A DNA stretch of 40,573 nt from positions 1 through 40,573 of the IMG/VR virus record IMGVR_UViG_3300045282_000100. One strand, 5' to 3'. The DNA is from a virus. Shown here one piece after another: positions 1 through 40,573 of this stretch. The notes under the pieces were generated by a model. It was not told the DNA's origin and searched no databases. It saw only the letters and a list, made by a program, of their open reading frames with translations. Within the stretch, counting starts at the first letter, position 1. Each line of letters opens with the position of its first letter. A program made the position numbers and the translations under genes.

Positions 1-160
1 GCTTTCACCAACGTCGCGCCGCCGGTGTCGCTGGCGTCGTGCACCAGCACCAACGCGGGGTGCGACACCGGCCAGACGATCGCGAGCTTCACGGCCAGCA
101 TTGCCGGGAACGCCAGCGCAGAGGTTCCCGAGCCTGCCACGCTGGCGGTGCTCGGCATGG
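1..160. repeat. terminal direct repeat, left copy (matches 40414-40573)
   Basis: Bases 1-160 match 40414-40573 with three substitutions, at 127, 135 and 148 (40540, 40548 and 40561 in the other copy). The repeat begins exactly at one window end and finishes exactly at the other, and a gene frame continues across it. This fits the overlap of a circularly permuted or terminally redundant phage map with a unit of about 40,413 bp. The mismatches point to population variants or contig-end errors. Confidence 0.9.
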
Positions 161-219
161 GGCTGCTCGGCTTGGGGCTGTTGCGGCGCCGTCGGAGAGA
201 CGACGCAGCGGCGGCCTGA
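1..219 (+). CDS. PEP-CTERM sorting-domain protein, 3' part (continues from 39958)
   Basis: This is the C-terminal part of the gene whose 5' part lies at 39958-40573. On a circular map, 39958-40413 followed by 1-219 gives one uninterrupted frame of 224 residues. The end shows the full exosortase sorting signal: the motif VPEPAT, a hydrophobic stretch (LAVLGMGLLGLGLL), then a basic cluster of five arginines and a short acidic/alanine tail. In the known family, the tail is recognised by exosortase in the inner membrane, cleaved, and the protein goes to the surface or extracellular matrix. This copy has the canonical PEP; the overlapping copy at the window end reads SEP. There is no start codon here because the gene begins elsewhere. 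Confidence 0.9.
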   Translation, partial: AFTNVAPPVSLASCTSTNAGCDTGQTIASFTASIAGNASAEVPEPATLAVLGMGLLGLGLLRRRRRDDAAAA

Positions 220-294: not shown

Positions 295-582
295 CTACTG
301 CATCGGTGGCGCGCCCGGCTTGTTCGCCGGGTCGTAGCCGTGCTGCTTCAGGAAATCGAACAGCCCCGCGGCGAGGTCGTAGGCAGCGGGGACTGGCATG
401 ATCAGTCGACCGATGACGACGCGATTGACCGGCCCCGGGGTGCTGACGTGGCTGACCCGCGCCGCCGCGAAGGTGATGGCGACGTTGGCGCCGAATGCGG
501 CGAAGCCGACCGCCTCGGTAGCGAATACGTCGGGCGCGTGCGGGTTGTCCACGAAGTGGACGGGTGGGCCGGTATTCGTCAT
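295..582 (-). CDS. conserved hypothetical protein, 95 aa
   Basis: The start at 582 is well supported by AGGGAGA a few bases upstream on the minus strand. The protein has a compact alternating pattern: a segment with VFATEAVGF, then NVAITFAAARVSH, then PGPVNRVVIGRLIMPV, and a C-terminal helix ending in FDFLKQHG. This order (beta strands, a PxPVNRVVIGRL core, then a helix) resembles small proteins of the DUF3467 type found in proteobacteria, but I cannot name a function. It is transcribed in the same direction as the repressor and lies just downstream of it, inside the immunity region. It is therefore probably expressed in the lysogen. No signal peptide or membrane segment is seen. Confidence 0.7.
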   Translation of the reverse strand: MTNTGPPVHFVDNPHAPDVFATEAVGFAAFGANVAITFAAARVSHVSTPGPVNRVVIGRLIMPVPAAYDLAAGLFDFLKQHGYDPANKPGAPPMQ

Positions 583-675: not shown

Positions 676-1038
676 TTAAGCTGCTTTTTCAGCGGAGATG
701 AGCGCGCGCAGCAGCGCTAGGCCCTTGCGCTTCTGCTCCTCGGTCATGTCGCCAAGCACTGCGGCTATTCCGAAATCGCTATCCGGTGGCCGGGCCAGAA
801 GGTCGGCCGGTTCACACTGAAGTGCGTCGGCAAGGGCCTCGAGCATTCCTTGGTCGTAGGGCGTCTTGCCTGTCTCGACGCGCGAAATGGTAGCGCCCGA
901 CGTCTCGAGCCGCTCGGCAAGCTGCTCCTGCGTGAGGTCCCGGTATTTCCGCCAAGCCTTGATGTACGTGGGCCGGCGGCGCTGGTCGCGAGCGAATCCC
1001 ATGGCGCAGCGTGTTGCACCCGGTGCAATCATGTCCAT
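676..1038 (-). CDS. XRE-family phage repressor (CI-like)
   Basis: The product is about 120 aa with a helix-turn-helix of the XRE/HTH_3 type (roughly residues 20-75: YIKAWRKYRDLTQEQLAERL, then SGATISRVETGKTPYD). A short C-terminal helix follows (TEEQKRKGLALLRALI), and there is no peptidase domain of the LexA/CI type. It is divergent from the Cro-like gene at 1097 with paired operators between them, so it is the likely lysogeny repressor. Without a self-cleavage domain, induction may need an antirepressor or another signal. Start choice: 1038 and 1032 are adjacent ATGs without a clear ribosome site, and 1002 is a third option that would leave the HTH intact. An upstream in-frame ATG at 1098 was discounted because it would put the operators inside the gene. 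Confidence 0.82.
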   Translation of the reverse strand: MDMIAPGATRCAMGFARDQRRRPTYIKAWRKYRDLTQEQLAERLETSGATISRVETGKTPYDQGMLEALADALQCEPADLLARPPDSDFGIAAVLGDMTEEQKRKGLALLRALISAEKAA

Positions 1039-1053
1039 GTCACCGGGCGTAAG
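1037..1053. promoter_or_regulatory. candidate repressor operator OR2 (degenerate)
   Basis: The right half CGTAAG (1048-1053) matches the operator half-site exactly. The left half (ATGTCA) is decayed. Its centre is 35 bases from that of the perfect site at 1072-1088, the same spacing as the pair at 39788-39839. It lies at the start of the repressor gene and could mediate autoregulation. Confidence 0.5.
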
Positions 1054-1060
1054 TTTTGTC

Positions 1061-1090
1061 TTGCGGCGCTTCTTACGTGAGGCGTAAGAT
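1061..1090 (+). promoter_or_regulatory. candidate early rightward promoter PR
   Basis: TTGCGG (1061-1066), an 18-base spacer and TAAGAT (1085-1090) make a sigma-70-like promoter. The perfect operator 1072-1088 fills the spacer and overlaps the -10. The predicted start, about seven bases after the -10, falls on or next to the ATG of the Cro-like gene at 1097. The transcript would therefore be leaderless or nearly so. The same architecture is repeated at PL. Confidence 0.6.
1072..1088. promoter_or_regulatory. candidate repressor operator OR1
   Basis: Perfect inverted repeat CTTACG-TGAGG-CGTAAG, with half-sites at 1072-1077 and 1083-1088. It sits between the divergent repressor and Cro-like genes. 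The same half-sites with a 5-base spacer recur at 39788-39804 (perfect) and 39823-39839 (one mismatch). Confidence 0.75.
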
Positions 1091-1096
1091 TGCTCC

Positions 1097-1312
1097 ATGC
1101 GATTAGCAAATTATCTACGCGCGCAAAACATCACGCTGGCGGCATTCGCCAAACGGATTGGCCGCTCGGAGGCCACCGTCAGCCGCCTCGCACGCGGAAA
1201 GCATCTGCCGGACTGGGACACGATGCAGGCGATCAAGGAAGCCACCGATGGCTGCGTGACGCCGAACGATTTCGAGCCGACCGCATCGGCCGATAATGAG
1301 AGCGCGGCATGA
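1097..1312 (+). CDS. Cro-like HTH protein, 71 aa
   Basis: A small DNA-binding protein with a helix-turn-helix over residues 5-45 (LRAQNITLAAFAKRIGRSEA, then TVSRLARGKHLP). It ends in the motif CVTPNDFEP, as do YdaS/Cro-like phage regulators. It is the first gene of the rightward transcript and divergent from the repressor, which is the standard position for Cro. No Shine-Dalgarno sequence is visible, and the -10 of PR ends seven bases before the ATG, so leaderless translation is likely. Its stop overlaps the start of the next gene by four bases. Its HTH is clearly related to the C-terminal half of the protein at 1309-1794. Confidence 0.8.
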   Translation: MRLANYLRAQNITLAAFAKRIGRSEATVSRLARGKHLPDWDTMQAIKEATDGCVTPNDFEPTASADNESAA

Positions 1313-33495: not shown

Positions 33496-33544
33496 TGGTC
33501 GGAGTGAGAGGATTTGAACCTCCGGCCCCTAGCTCCCGAAGCAG
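33496..33544 (-). other. attP core in a tRNA-Pro(CGG) 3' segment
   Basis: Read on the minus strand this is the last part of a tRNA: anticodon loop TTCGGGA (anticodon CGG), variable region, T-arm GGAGGTTCAAATCCTC and the acceptor end with CCA. The bases upstream of the loop do not form the 5' half of the anticodon stem, so it is a fragment and not a gene. The integrase gene ends four bases away. Tyrosine integrases typically use the 3' end of tRNA genes as attB, restoring the host tRNA on integration. Identity of the host tRNA is inferred. Confidence 0.85.
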
Positions 33545-33548
33545 ATGC

Positions 33549-34628
33549 TCACCCATTGCCATTGCTTTGATGCCGCTTGGTTTTCGGCGCCATCGCGTCA
33601 TGGGTGTGACGTATATGTGCCGCGAGCGCGTCGACTGCGGCACGCTCGGCGCTCACCTCGCGGTGGGCGTAGCGCATCGTCGTCTCGATACGCGCATGGC
33701 CGAGGACGCTGCGCACCGTGTCGAGCGGCACGCCTGCCTGCACCATCCACGACGCCGCGGTGTGGCGCAGATCGTGCCAGCGGAAGTTCGCGATCCCAGC
33801 GCGCCTGAGCGCCGTGGCAAACGCCCGCCGCCACTTCGCGATCGGCCGCCGCTGCCAGGTGAACACCGGCCCGGCATCGTGCGGTGCCATGTTGGCGAGC
33901 GTCACCAACGCCACCTCGTTCAGCGGCACCGTCAGCACTTTGCCGCCCGGTATGCGCGACTTCACCCGCAGCGTAATGACGCGGTTGTGCATGTCGACCA
34001 TTGACCAGTCGAGCCCGACGCAGTTCGCAAGCCGGATGCCGGTGTGAAGCGACAGCGCGATGGCGGGTCGAAGGTGGGGGGCGGCGCAGGCGATGAGCCG
34101 CGCGGCCTCGTCTGCAGTCAGATAGCGATTTCGCCCCTCGGGCTCACGCAGCCTATGCGCCTTCCAGTTGATGGGCGCGACCTCGAGCCCCCAGCGGTCG
34201 CGGGCCATGCGGAGCACGGCGCGGAGGATGGTGAGCTCGCGGTTAACGGTCGCATCCGCGACCTTGGCGCGGCGCCGCGCGACGAACGTGGCAACGTCAC
34301 CATCGGCCAGATCCTCGATCATCGCCGCCTTGGGAATCAGGGCAAGGACGTTGGCAATCTGGATCGCGATCGTGGTCGCGGACGGTAGACGCTGGGCGTG
34401 TTCCAGCCAGTAGCGGCCACATGCCGCGTCGAGCGAAACGGTCGGCTTCTTGCCGGTCAGGCCGCAGAGGAGGGCGGTGGATCGGTGCCTGGCGGCGATG
34501 ATTTCGGCCGTCGTTTCGTCGTCCGTCTGACAGCTTCCGCGAACCCGACGACCGTTGACGGTGAAATCGTAGTACCAATGTGGCGTGTCCGCCCGCTGAT
34601 AGATGAGCCGGCTCTTGCGCCTTGCCAT
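33549..34628 (-). CDS. int: tyrosine-type phage integrase, 359 aa
   Basis: Catalyses site-specific integration and excision at the adjacent attP. N-terminal arm-binding segment, then a SAM-like core-binding domain (about 65-145), then the catalytic domain with R199 (HTGIRLANCVGL), H285 and R288 (HDLRHTAASW), H311 (LGHARIETTM) and the nucleophile Y320. All five residues of the family are present, and the length is normal. The start MARRKSRLIYQRADTPHWYY is typical of the family. Its 5' end overlaps the excisionase-like gene by 172 bases, as int and xis overlap in several phages. Confidence 0.95.
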   Translation of the reverse strand: MARRKSRLIYQRADTPHWYYDFTVNGRRVRGSCQTDDETTAEIIAARHRSTALLCGLTGKKPTVSLDAACGRYWLEHAQRLPSATTIAIQIANVLALIPKAAMIEDLADGDVATFVARRRAKVADATVNRELTILRAVLRMARDRWGLEVAPINWKAHRLREPEGRNRYLTADEAARLIACAAPHLRPAIALSLHTGIRLANCVGLDWSMVDMHNRVITLRVKSRIPGGKVLTVPLNEVALVTLANMAPHDAGPVFTWQRRPIAKWRRAFATALRRAGIANFRWHDLRHTAASWMVQAGVPLDTVRSVLGHARIETTMRYAHREVSAERAAVDALAAHIRHTHDAMAPKTKRHQSNGNG

Positions 34629-34804
34629 GCCACGCGCCTCCGCTCGATGAATTCCAGCAAGTCGGCTTCCGTGAACCGGCGCCGCTTTCCGATGCGCACA
34701 AAGCGGATGTTGCCAGCCTCGACCTCACGGCGGAAGACCTTGAGCGAGACGCCGAGGCGGCTGGCGGCCTCGCGCTGGGCGATCAAGAGGCGCTCGTTCA
34801 TCAT
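34457..34804 (-). CDS. excisionase-like HTH protein (MerR/HTH_17 type)
   Basis: Starts at ATG 34804 (or 34801) after a GGAG ribosome site. Residues 1-55 hold an HTH_17 domain: RLLIAQREAASRLGVSLKVF, REVEAGNIRFVRIGKRRRFT, EADLLEFIERRR. This is the usual plan of small excisionases. The following ~60 residues overlap the integrase gene in another frame and may be weakly constrained. Location directly before integrase and on the same strand supports a directionality-factor role. DNA binding is inferred. Confidence 0.75.
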   Translation of the reverse strand: MMNERLLIAQREAASRLGVSLKVFRREVEAGNIRFVRIGKRRRFTEADLLEFIERRRVAWQGARAGSSISGRTRHIGTTISPSTVVGFAEAVRRTTKRRPKSSPPGTDPPPSSAA

Positions 34805-34805
34805 C

Positions 34806-34997
34806 TCACTCCGTCTCGGGCTTGGGGGGTTCGGGAAGCTCCATCCAATGCGTGATGCCGCGGTCGTTGCTGAAACTGTCCTCGGCCTCGGACCACTCCT
34901 GCACCGAATAGCGGTCGAGCGATCTGCCGGGCATGAACACGAGAAACACATCCTCAATCGTGGGCTGGTGCTTCTTGATGTTTCGCCATCCGCTCAT
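34806..34997 (-). CDS. DUF551-like small protein, 63 aa
   Basis: The sequence begins MSGWRNIKKHQPTIEDVFLV and ends with the diagnostic ITHWMELPEPPKPETE (DUF551 proteins end THWMPLPEPP). Such proteins are frequent in leftward early operons of temperate phages and have no known function. Its ATG overlaps the preceding gene's stop by four bases. Confidence 0.8.
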   Translation of the reverse strand: MSGWRNIKKHQPTIEDVFLVFMPGRSLDRYSVQEWSEAEDSFSNDRGITHWMELPEPPKPETE

Positions 34998-35767: not shown

Positions 35768-35895
35768 CGGAACACCCCCAGCGCAGCGGCGGCGATCAGC
35801 AGCACGAGCCACAGCGCCGTAACGGCGATGCTGCCGCGCCAGAACCAGAACCACTCGTCGGCGGTGTTGGGCAGCAGCGAGCGGCGGATCATCAT
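35764..35895 (-). CDS. small single-pass membrane protein, 43 aa
   Basis: ATG 35895 to TGA 35764, with four-base overlaps on both sides (annealase stop and next gene's start). The product has a polar N-terminus RRSLLPNTADEWFWFWRGSI and one hydrophobic helix AVTALWLVLLIAAAALGVF. Tight coupling and clear topology support a real gene. The function is unknown. Confidence 0.6.
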   Translation of the reverse strand: MMIRRSLLPNTADEWFWFWRGSIAVTALWLVLLIAAAALGVFR

Positions 35896-36791
35896 GCCGC
35901 CGCCGCCTTGCGCCGCAGCTCGAGCTGGCAGCCGGTGAATACGGCGCGCAACCTGTCGGCCGCCGCCGCCCCGGCCTTGGTGGCCGACATCGTCAGCATC
36001 ACGTCCTTATTCTGCTCGACGATCGCAAGCAGATCGTCCTCGCACTCGGCCGCCATCAGCGCGTCGCGATAGTCGCTACACCAGGCCGTCCACTCTTCCT
36101 TGCCGCTGACGCCATCCGCCCCGACGCCGAGCTTGATGGCGAACGGGCGCTCGCCGATGTCGACGATCTCGCCGGTTTCCGCATCATGCGCGTGCGCGGG
36201 CGGGGGCGGCTCGGCGATCTGCTTCGGCGGGTTCTCGCCTGCGAACTCCGCCAAGTCGTCCGCAGGCTTGCGGCTCACGGCTGGCCGCGTCGCGGCGCGC
36301 GTGCTGGCTTCGATCGAGATCTCGGTTTCGTCCAGCATGCCAAGGCCAACGATCGACAACGTGACGCGGCGCTTGGCCTTAGTCTCCGCCTTCATCATCG
36401 CGTTCGCCAGGTTCTCGCCGACCAGCCCCTTGATATTGACAGCGCCGGTTGACCAGTCCTCGCGGCCGGTTGCTTCGGTAGCTGTCGCCATGACGACGTA
36501 GACATCCTGGATCGTCCGCGTCTCGCCGAGCCGGATCGAGATGCGGTTCAGCTTGCGAAGCTGATCGGTGCAGTCCCGCTTCGCGTACAGGACGAGCCGG
36601 TTGTTCAGCCGGATGTATTCAAAGGGTTTCGTGAGCGGGTTGAGGCCAAGGCTGTCGCATACGGCATGGTAGTACCGGATACGCTCGTCGGGCGAGAGCA
36701 CCGACAGGTCGCCTTCGATCAGCACCGTCTCGAGCGCGCGCGACGGATCTTTCGGCGCCGCGTCCTGCGTTGCGGGGGCCTTACTCGCCAT
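35892..36791 (-). CDS. probable ssDNA-annealing recombination protein, 299 aa
   Basis: The start at ATG 36791 has GGAAAGGAAAC upstream, so the longer reading frame from 36872 is not needed. The core reads [100 protein letters not shown] and [20 protein letters not shown]. This is the phrase order of phage recombination proteins paired with YqaJ-type exonucleases (RecT/Erf-like). The C-terminal third is a linker plus a helical domain. It is predicted to anneal single strands made by the exonuclease. The exact superfamily is not certain. Confidence 0.75.
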
Positions 36792-37236
36792 TGCGTTTCC
36801 TTTCCTTGCTGGCGATACGGTTGCGGCGCCTCTTGGCGTTCTGACAAATTCGGCAAAGCCGCTGTACCGCATTCCGATGCGTAAACGGATGGCCGAACTT
36901 GCAGGTGTCTACCAGAAGGTGCCGGTGCCGCCCCTTGGCGGCCATGTCGCGGCAGTTGTCAGCTATCGTTCCGAGCCATAGATGCGCAGGGTTCACGCAA
37001 CACGGCACGTCGCAGTGATGAAGAACAAAAAGCCCGGCCGGGATAGGGCCGCGATGAAGCTGCCATGAAACTCTATGGGCCAGAGCTGGACCTGTTCGTC
37101 TACCAAGGCTGATACACCCATAGCCCCAGCGATTAACCCGCATGGTCCACAGCCAACAGCCGCTTTCAGTGACCGGCATGTAGCTGCGTTCAAAGCGCTC
37201 GCGCAACGGTGTAACCTTATTCATCGGCGTCGCCAT
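36781..37236 (-). CDS. HNH homing endonuclease with C-terminal zinc finger, 151 aa
   Basis: It lies between the exonuclease and the annealase and overlaps both (20 bases and 11 bases). Motifs: [40 protein letters not shown], and the HNH core [20 protein letters not shown] followed by ADNCRDM. The C-terminal [11 protein letters not shown]...[11 protein letters not shown] is a zinc-finger-like tail typical of HNH_3 phage endonucleases. It is probably a mobile element that invaded the recombination operon. Confidence 0.9.
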
Positions 37237-38134
37237 TGCTGATCCGCTTGATCCGCAAAACCCTTACGTCCTTCTCGGGCACGGTATAGGCTTTGCGGTG
37301 CTCCGTTGCGTTGCGGATAAGCCACTCTCCTGACCGGGCTGTCCTGGCGGCACCCACCTTGGCTCGGATCGCATCGTTGATGTCTGCGAGGCGCTTCGTT
37401 GCGCCCAGGAGAGTGGCCCGCTCGGTCAACAGACCGGGCATCTCGTTATCGCCATCGAGCGAAATCTCTTCGCCGTTATCCGTCGGGAACAGACGCGCCA
37501 ACGTTTCATAGTCCTGCGGCAGCACTGGCTTAGGCGGCTCGCCGCGCTCGACCGCATCCCAGAACGACGCAACGTCGGCTGTGATTTTCGCCTCGACTGC
37601 AGCGATACGCGGCACCGCGAATAAGCGCAGATCGAGGTTTCGCGTCATCACCATGATCGCGATCGTTCCCCATGCCGCGCCGGTCGTCATCATCTGGACG
37701 ACGACTTGCAGCGAGTGGAAAAGCGGCGCCGTCTCGCCGTATGTCGCGAACTTCTCGGGCAGCATTGATTTGAGTTCGAGGACGCCGGTAGCGGGCTCGC
37801 CTGGCTCACCTATGAAGCAATCTGGGGTGCTGCCGATCCGCTGCTCGGGCAGGCGCCAGTAATCGGTCGCCTTGTGGATCAACGGAGCCCATTCCGGGTT
37901 CTGGTCCTTGACGGCTTCCATGATGGCCGGCTCGAGCCAGCGGCCGCGTTTCATCGCCGGGTTCTCGCCTTGCTGACCATCGTCGCCCCGCTTCTGGTGA
38001 TACAGCTGCAGCGCGGTGAGATAGGGATGGTGGCCCCAGAGCGCTGCTACTTGGCTTGCCGTGACATCGCGGCGACGCATGTCGAGCCATCGCCCCTTGT
38101 CGGTTATGGCGATGCGTTCGCGGTTCTCGGTCAT
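37217..38134 (-). CDS. YqaJ-family viral exonuclease, 305 aa
   Basis: A lambda-exonuclease-fold PD-(D/E)XK nuclease. Visible elements are [20 protein letters not shown] (N-terminal signature), [20 protein letters not shown] (E68), GSTPDCFIG (D105), GVLELKSML (E120, K122) and the helix [13 protein letters not shown] with its conserved Q. The length is slightly above the domain alone. It resects double-strand ends to feed the annealase encoded downstream, forming a two-component recombination system. The HNH gene sits between them. Confidence 0.9.
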
Positions 38135-39785: not shown

Positions 39786-39815
39786 AACTTACGCCGAGCG
39801 TAAGAGCGCGCGCAA
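39786..39815 (-). promoter_or_regulatory. candidate early leftward promoter PL
   Basis: On the minus strand TTGCGC (39810-39815), an 18-base spacer and TAAGTT (39786-39791) form a promoter whose spacer holds the perfect operator 39788-39804. The geometry is the same as at PR (-35, 18-base spacer, -10, operator overlapping the -10). It would start the operon 39743-33549 near 39779. Confidence 0.6.
39788..39804. promoter_or_regulatory. candidate repressor operator OL1
   Basis: Perfect inverted repeat CTTACG-CCGAG-CGTAAG, with the same half-sites and 5-base spacer as OR1. It overlaps the -10 of PL. Confidence 0.75.
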
Positions 39816-39822
39816 GGGAAAT

Positions 39823-39839
39823 CTTACGCGGCACGTAAT
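39823..39839. promoter_or_regulatory. candidate repressor operator OL2
   Basis: CTTACG-CGGCA-CGTAAT, one mismatch from the perfect palindrome. Its centre is 35 bases from that of OL1, and it ends seven bases from the PL -35, as OR2 does at PR. It is the nearest operator to the PEP-CTERM gene. Confidence 0.7.
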
Positions 39840-39870
39840 ATTTCTGTCAGCCGCCTTTACAGCCGGTGTC

Positions 39871-39891
39871 CGGGGGGCAGCGAACCCCCCG
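39871..39891. promoter_or_regulatory. 7-bp GC hairpin upstream of the PEP-CTERM gene
   Basis: CGGGGGG (39871-39877) and CCCCCCG (39885-39891) pair perfectly around CAGCGAA. The hairpin lies between OL2 and the sigma-54 promoter candidate. It could be an insulator or enhancer-binding geometry for an activator. A weak inverted repeat CTGT-N11-ACAG (39844-39862) lies just upstream. Confidence 0.45.
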
Positions 39892-39902
39892 CAAATCCGC
39901 TA

Positions 39903-39918
39903 TGGCACAGGACGTGCT
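39903..39918 (+). promoter_or_regulatory. candidate sigma-54 promoter of the PEP-CTERM gene
   Basis: TGGCAC-N5-GTGCT matches the -24/-12 consensus TGGCAC-N5-TTGCW with only one change among the consensus positions outside the spacer. The GG and GC pairs have exact spacing. The predicted start is near 39928, thirty bases before the ATG at 39958. In some betaproteobacteria PEP-CTERM genes are reported to depend on RpoN and the PrsK/PrsR two-component system, so this fits the gene. Confidence 0.68.
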
Positions 39919-39950
39919 CCCTGTGGCCGGTAAGCCAACCTCACAGGGAG
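39917..39950 (+). promoter_or_regulatory. inverted repeat covering the ribosome site of the PEP-CTERM gene
   Basis: CTCCCTGTG (39917-39925) pairs perfectly with CACAGGGAG (39942-39950) around 16 bases. The right arm contains the AGGGAG ribosome site. The left arm lies just upstream of the predicted sigma-54 start. Only transcripts from further upstream would therefore fold it and hide the ribosome site. Confidence 0.6.
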
Positions 39951-39957
39951 TTCACCC

Positions 39958-40573
39958 ATGAAACGTCTGCTCTTCGCCGCCGCTCTGCTGCTGGGCGCAG
40001 CACCCGCCTATGCCGCCCCGATCATGACCTTCGGCCAGATCAGTGGCAGCAACACCATCACCGCCACCGCCTCGGCCACCGGCACGACCTGGGGCAACAA
40101 CGACATCGGCGTGACGGTGACGCAGATCGCGCCCAACGGGCCGGCGACGCCGTTCAATGCATTCCTCGACATCGCCGCGCACTCGATCAGCGGGGCGACG
40201 CTGACCGGCGGCGTGCTGATCACGCAGCATTTCGCGGGCACGTTCAGCATCTGCAGTACGGCTGTCGGCTGTGCGGTCAACTACCTGTCGGGCAGTTTTT
40301 CCGATGGCGCGATCACGGCCAACGGCGCCACCGGCATCGCCGTATTCTCACCCACCGCCACCTTCGTCAGCGACGTGATCCAGGCTCTTGACTTGCCGCG
40401 GTCGATCAACTTCGCTTTCACCAACGTCGCGCCGCCGGTGTCGCTGGCGTCGTGCACCAGCACCAACGCGGGGTGCGACACCGGCCAGACGATCGCGAGC
40501 TTCACGGCCAGCATTGCCGGGAACGCCAGCGCAGAGGTTTCCGAGCCCGCCACGCTGGCGCTGCTCGGCATGG
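39958..40573 (+). CDS. PEP-CTERM sorting-domain protein, 5' part (continues at 1-219)
   Basis: Starts at ATG 39958 with AGGGAG eight bases upstream. Signal peptide: a basic start KR, a hydrophobic core LLFAAALLLGAAP, cleavage after AYA, then APIMTFGQISGSNTITATAS. The mature part is a small beta-rich domain with several cysteines (SICSTAVGCAVNYLSG, LASCTSTNAGCDTG). Joined with 1-219, the protein is 224 aa and ends in a PEP-CTERM signal; in the copy within this end the first proline reads serine (VSEPAT). It is probably secreted through the Sec system, processed by exosortase and delivered to the surface or biofilm matrix. It is phage cargo in the immunity region. Confidence 0.9.
   Translation, partial: MKRLLFAAALLLGAAPAYAAPIMTFGQISGSNTITATASATGTTWGNNDIGVTVTQIAPNGPATPFNAFLDIAAHSISGATLTGGVLITQHFAGTFSICSTAVGCAVNYLSGSFSDGAITANGATGIAVFSPTATFVSDVIQALDLPRSINFAFTNVAPPVSLASCTSTNAGCDTGQTIASFTASIAGNASAEVSEPATLALLGM
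40414..40573. repeat. terminal direct repeat, right copy (matches 1-160)
   Basis: The last 160 bases repeat the first 160 with substitutions at 40540 (C/T), 40548 (T/C) and 40561 (G/C). All three fall in the final 34 bases. The first changes the P of PEP to S, the second is silent, and the third changes V to L. Confidence 0.9.

Follow-up and report, generated by a model that had tools for sequence, protein, structure and literature searches.

A phage-borne PEP-CTERM gene behind a predicted host-type sigma-54 promoter: candidate cargo for the host exosortase system

PEP-CTERM proteins are numerous on the surface of bacteria and are tied to biofilm and polysaccharide, but most of them have no assigned function. 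Two phage systems invite comparison with the gene described here, namely rexAB of phage lambda, which is transcribed together with cI, and the receptor-shielding lipoproteins of the T5 Llp type, which are phage-encoded and envelope-bound. Upstream of proteobacterial PEP-CTERM genes, Haft and colleagues described a 17-nt motif ending in TTTACA, a spacer of 32-92 nt and a sigma-54 motif (PMC1569441). PrsR is the presumed activator at these promoters, and the regulon of this PEP-CTERM box is tied to polysaccharide synthesis (PMC1569441). The window analyzed in this study is the whole of the 40,573-bp IMG/VR virus record IMGVR_UViG_3300045282_000100. It had been predicted to carry a PEP-CTERM gene of a temperate phage, for which no well-characterized phage example was known; the open-access literature searched likewise contained no description of phage PEP-CTERM genes, subscription journals being outside the scope of that search.

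As drawn, the record ends in an ORF (39958-40572) that lacks the tail and runs off the end. The stretch 40414-40573 is a copy of 1-160, of which the first 126 bases are exact and the following 34 contain 3 mismatches. When 39958-40413 and 1-219 are joined at this overlap, an ORF of 224 amino acids results, in which the signal peptide MKRLLFAAALLLGAAPAYA is followed by a beta-rich body, VPEPAT, a hydrophobic stretch and an arginine cluster, the tail reading VPEPATLAVLGMGLLGLGLLRRRRRDDAAAA. The complete tail foreseen in the original prediction is thus present across the joined ends. The right-end copy of the tail reads VSEPATLALLGM, with another residue in place of the first proline (VSEP versus VPEP), so that the two window ends represent two strain variants of one PEP-CTERM gene. 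An exact overlap that then diverges would be the expected assembly product if one circular or permuted phage were present as two strains. Two contigs of other metagenomes, L053 and L054, support the circular join in that each has the same order within a single contig, i.e., in L053 the homologues of the exonuclease gene and of o39321, the PEP-CTERM gene and the counterpart of 295-582, and in L054 the o39321 homologue, the PEP-CTERM gene and the same counterpart (95% identical in either case). In both, the PEP-CTERM gene is uninterrupted and its body is 72% identical to that of the window.

An assembly artefact, in which a host PEP-CTERM gene was misjoined to phage DNA, might have been suspected, because the gene extends across both ends of the record and the two copies of the overlap are not identical. 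It is, however, barely credible and already refuted, since two other metagenome assemblies hold the gene uninterrupted, at the same locus and amid the same phage genes; it is neither host flank nor absent from relatives of this phage. An integration junction at the PEP-CTERM gene is ruled out as well, because the integrase gene and the att-like site (33.5-34.6 kb) lie about 6.4 kb away and, together with the excisionase-like gene, occupy 33.5-35.0 kb.

The window gene is a genuine PEP-CTERM gene as judged from its sequence. The joined protein scores 24.9 bits with TIGR02595 (cut-off 16) and, like the exosortase (EpsH) substrates of that family, combines a signal peptide, predicted from hydrophobicity and an AXA site, with an unclassified body, the VPEPAT motif, and a hydrophobic stretch ending in a basic cluster (LAVLGMGLLGLGLLRRRRR). 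At the PEP position, the other window variant reads SEP, and L053 and L054 read AEP. AlphaFold2, run on 71 sequences, predicted an all-beta body (pLDDT 91, pTM 0.86), for which Foldseek gave no match better than E 0.2 in the PDB or BFVD, and a sequence search of the PDB gave no match. The body alone matched no Pfam family and, with confidence, no NCBIfam family. A relation to floc_PepA was considered and rejected; the whole protein reached 45.7 bits where the cut-off is 80, this match came with the tail, and the body alone matches nothing. For a leader RNA element, Rfam yielded sub-threshold matches only, and the predicted folding of 39928-40000 was not stronger than that of shuffled sequences (z +1.5).

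Table 1. Features of the window around the PEP-CTERM gene and in the phage control and integration regions
Feature	Position	Strand	Remarks
Probable attP, 53 nt similar to the tRNA-Pro(CGG) 3' end, beside integrase	33497-33549	-	Alphaproteobacterial replicons give the best matches, about 86-90%
Tyrosine integrase	33549-34628	-	PF00589, E 2e-26
Excisionase-like protein	34457-34951	-	TIGR01764, 42.3 bits (cut-off 28.8)
Lambda-exonuclease/YqaJ-type recombinase, left early operon	37217-38134	-	
Left operator block, two 15-bp palindromes TTACG...CGTAA	39789-39838		TTACGCCGAGCGTAA (39789-39803) and TTACGCGGCACGTAA (39824-39838); ends 8 bp before motif 1
Motif 1 of PEP-CTERM box, presumed PrsR site	39846-39862	+	GTCAGCCGCCTTTACAG; 17-nt motif ending in TTTACA (PMC1569441)
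Motif 2, predicted sigma-54 -24/-12 promoter	39903-39918	+	TGGCACAGGACGTGCT; separated from motif 1 by 41 nt and from the start codon by 55 nt
PEP-CTERM gene, 5' part (signal peptide, body, tail start as strain variant SEPATLALLGM)	39958-40573	+	Continues in 1-219 via 126-base exact overlap; intact in L053 and L054
PEP-CTERM gene, 3' part (body end, VPEPAT tail, hydrophobic stretch, RRRRR, stop)	1-219	+	TIGR02595 in place at 124-198, 29.1 bits
95-aa protein adjoining PEP-CTERM gene	295-582	-	95% identical in L053 and L054; no Pfam match
CI-like repressor (HTH)	676-1098	-	phrog_7241, phrog_8, phrog_3 (transcriptional repressors); true start probably internal, near 1002
Right operator block, sites related to the left palindromes, between repressor and cro-like gene	1048-1087		
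Cro-like HTH protein	1097-1312	+	

With an integrase beside a tRNA-Pro-like site, an excisionase-like protein, CI- and Cro-like genes and paired palindromic operators, the window phage looks temperate by its gene content (Table 1). The late genes, i.e., those of terminase, portal and major head protein, are located from 8.7 kb on. ARAGORN found no complete tRNA, and the tRNA-like att segment, searched with up to 2 mismatches, had no match in 299 Acetobacteraceae genomes or 289 genomes of the class. As had been proposed, the PEP-CTERM gene lies between the two early operator blocks, flanked by the left block on one side and by the repressor and the right block on the other. The parallel drawn with lambda rexAB holds for this position, that of an accessory gene between repressor and left operators which, as with surface genes of lysogenic conversion, would plausibly be expressed in the lysogen. 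It does not hold otherwise; the gene starts on the plus strand and runs counter to the repressor and the left operon, has its own host-type sigma-54 promoter and would need a host exosortase, and neither a sequence relation to rexAB nor co-transcription with cI was found, the body being without a family match. The adjoining genes have diverged unevenly between the window and L053, as if genes had been swapped; the protein of 295-582 is 95% identical to its counterpart, yet the PEP-CTERM body is 72%, the exonuclease 58% and the protein of 35892-36872 65% identical. The same accessory slot, between left operon and PEP-CTERM gene, holds two overlapping ORF calls in L053 and L054 (L053:7602-9679, minus strand), among which a 352-amino-acid ORF has no Pfam match.

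Motif 1, a spacer within the published range of 32-92 nt and motif 2 are all found at 39846-39918. A position weight matrix, trained on 12 bacterial copies only and scored over both window strands, ranks this composite site first in the window with 30.4 bits, the runner-up reaching 19.3 bits and the maximum of 100 Markov shuffles 25.6 bits; the exact box pattern occurs once in the window and in none of the 100 shuffles. Bacterial substrates of TIGR02595 have the same PrsR/sigma-54 box upstream (PMC1569441). The bacterial relatives of the window gene show the box as GTCGGCTTTCTTTACAG, a spacer of 60-63 nt and TGGCAC-N5-TTGCT; the window gene differs from them in being phage-encoded and in its spacer of 41 nt, which is approximately two helical turns shorter. 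A box with the 41-nt spacer also precedes the PEP-CTERM genes of L053, L054, L063 and L017, the last of which has a body unrelated to that of the window and CI-, Cro- and RecT-type genes as neighbours. In a protein-blind test, the box pattern was searched in all viral contigs and was found in 21 contigs, of which 18 had at least 600 nt of downstream sequence; a PEP-CTERM gene, with several unrelated bodies, followed at 11 of these 18 evaluable sites, although certain virus records may include host DNA. The matches include L172 (integrase, primase), L175 (minor tail protein) and L179 (terminase subunits, portal), and a promoter search of this kind is suggested as a protein-blind route to further such genes. 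Box-like sites without a PEP-CTERM gene were seen in L176 and L178, where the same 237-amino-acid gene follows the box, and in L169, L171, L174 and L183; they are due either to chance or to further members of the regulon. In L023, from an integrase-bearing record (G029), a good motif 1 (GTCGGGAAACTTTACAC) is followed 64 nt on by a sigma-54-like site with GG changed to AG at -24, which is possibly a decayed box. The predicted host-type sigma-54 promoter of the window supports host-regulated expression of the PEP-CTERM gene in a lysogen.

A viral scan with the single window protein found no relatives, the pattern VPEPATLA had matches in 29 viral contigs, and an alignment of bodies matched 173 stretches, of which 161 are true relatives in viral contigs, many of them beside homologues of terminase, portal or capsid genes. 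By tblastn, neither the window protein nor two other phage PEP-CTERM proteins matched any of 50,697 deposited phages, nor did the window protein match plasmids, and a PHROG search with six phage PEP-CTERM proteins gave no confident match. Distinct complete phage ORFs number 63, and all of them have E-P, the hydrophobic helix, the basic end and a hydrophobic leader, while P-E-P is kept in 58; the first proline varies in the closest copies (VSEP in the other window variant, VAEP in L053 and L054). Pairwise dN/dS values of 0.1-0.3 support purifying selection on the phage gene. Two PEP-CTERM tails within one phage record, at times in adjacent genes, were observed in L030 and L007 and in the records G013, G014, G024, G025, G027, G031 and G032.

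On the bacterial side, 5 of 397 genomes in the family of Sabulicella (Acetobacteraceae-type) contain the body, and samples of the class (385 genomes) and of the phylum (398) yielded no further genome with it. When the whole collection was scanned with one genome for each species, 17 loci were found, none of them outside Sabulicella and Roseococcus; this is a lower bound because the scan pattern was narrow. These chromosomal paralogues (L036-L052) have the same body, at 37-47% identity, and in most copies the same two-part promoter; they differ from the window gene in their tails, which end in VPAPA and not in VPEP, in their dispersal as about nine scattered copies per genome, and in having no phage genes beside the copies examined. 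The copies within a genome are diverged and 75-94% alike over roughly 750 bp only. In a tree, phage and bacterial copies are strongly separated (2 changes versus 17 in shuffles), most of the diversity is held by the phage copies, and the window copy belongs to a supported clade made up of 11 phage rows. Body relatives in bacterial chromosomes, such as L152, which adjoins genes that are dapA- and smpB-like from their translations, would agree with a passenger host gene picked up by chance and without a role for the phage. This is highly improbable, however, given the presence in 161 viral contigs, the low dN/dS values, the tail retained in every distinct complete ORF and the concentration of family diversity in phages.

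The predicted dependence on a host exosortase is in line with the sequence data. The window and the viral loci fetched were searched for an exosortase and a PrsR relative, and neither was found; the exosortase domain (PF09721) has one match each in Sabulicella and Roseococcus, the two genomes with most copies, and PrsR scores above the cut-off in four of the five bacterial genomes with body relatives.

Most relatives have no box (score below 17); they lie close to terminase and portal genes on the late strand, and the PEP-CTERM gene there often overlaps or abuts the beginning of the reading frame of a small membrane protein with one helix. The latter (VTEQER...LPPAFLMLIVLN... or ...LGPQFLALV...) was seen after or overlapping late-operon PEP-CTERM genes in L099, L116, L125, L117, L121, L029 and others, and has no PHROG match. 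Among 30 long related records, the PEP-CTERM tail exceeds the cut-off in 29 and phrog_2 terminase is found in 22; a tyrosine integrase is found in only 3. In the records G006, G004, G010, G028 and G032, terminase matches contain internal stops (up to 4 TGA), for which introns, frameshifts or recoding may account. The surface gene had been proposed as a form of lysogenic conversion, and this stands for the window insofar as an intact, selected and recurrent gene is located in a phage of temperate type behind a host-type sigma-54 promoter. It does not stand as a general rule, because many copies are located in late operons of integrase-less phages; lysogenic conversion alone does not explain the whole family, and a role in the lytic phase is also needed. 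From this arrangement the gene might be taken for a lytic-phase envelope protein, made late, which would aid lysis or release or prevent progeny from adhering to debris, with the window copy as a relocated late gene; its closest relatives include L065 and L062, and in L154, of the same record as L065, the gene lies just upstream of terminase. For the window this seems rather improbable, as the repressor and the left operators flank the copies of the window, L053 and L054, and the promoter there is of the host's sigma-54 type and not a late one. Box-bearing copies such as that of the window look to be host-regulated genes in or near control regions.

Summarizing, the preferred reading, to which a probability of roughly 0.7 is assigned, is that the window carries a phage cargo gene for the host exosortase system which is wired into the host's own regulon. 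The gene, its tail, the promoter, selection, recurrence and the temperate gene set being read from the sequence, the following course of events is proposed. In a lysogen, CI would occupy the operators, and the separate sigma-54 promoter just past the left operators would stay free. A PrsR-type activator of the host would bind motif 1 and fire this promoter when the host makes extracellular polysaccharide. The protein would then be exported via Sec, its tail would anchor it in the inner membrane, and the host exosortase would cut at (P)EP. Eventually, the beta-domain would be released or attached, at the surface or in the matrix. The host's switch has a copy in front of the gene, and the virus thus seems to contribute a protein of its own to the coat while the host is building it.

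As to the benefit, shielding of the surface from other phages is offered as a tentative first guess, which falls short of even odds and is placed first because it would pay both in temperate copies and in late-operon copies of integrase-less phages. The analogy is with the T5 Llp type, which is likewise a phage-encoded envelope protein and would be useful in lytic and lysogenic growth if adsorption were blocked; unlike it, the window protein has an exosortase tail and no lipobox, and its shielding is putative. Second, close behind, comes a role in matrix or aggregation, in which the displayed protein would make lysogens stick or floc, from which both host and prophage would profit in biofilms. 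In activated-sludge bacteria, PEP-CTERM proteins are reported to be necessary for flocs to form (PMC9850573, PMC9012009), and the phage promoter belongs to a regulon tied to polysaccharide synthesis (PMC1569441). This role is nevertheless judged unlikely, as it leaves the many late-operon copies in integrase-less phages unexplained, and the body matches no NCBIfam family, the weak floc_PepA match of the whole protein having come with the tail.

The chances are about even that exosortase cargo, in part from a beta-domain family that is largely phage-borne and has no close solved or viral structural match, was recruited by phages more than once, and that some of it is plugged into the PrsR/sigma-54 regulon, so that a prophage protein would be made exactly during the building of the polysaccharide coat. 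If such proteins are carried by phages, under strong selection and with a copy of the host promoter in front, then the PEP-CTERM coat is edited by viruses, and the phage copies would be a handle on the roles of PEP-CTERM proteins, e.g., in blocking adsorption or in cell cohesion. If true, this would be a previously undescribed phage route to remodel or shield the host surface.
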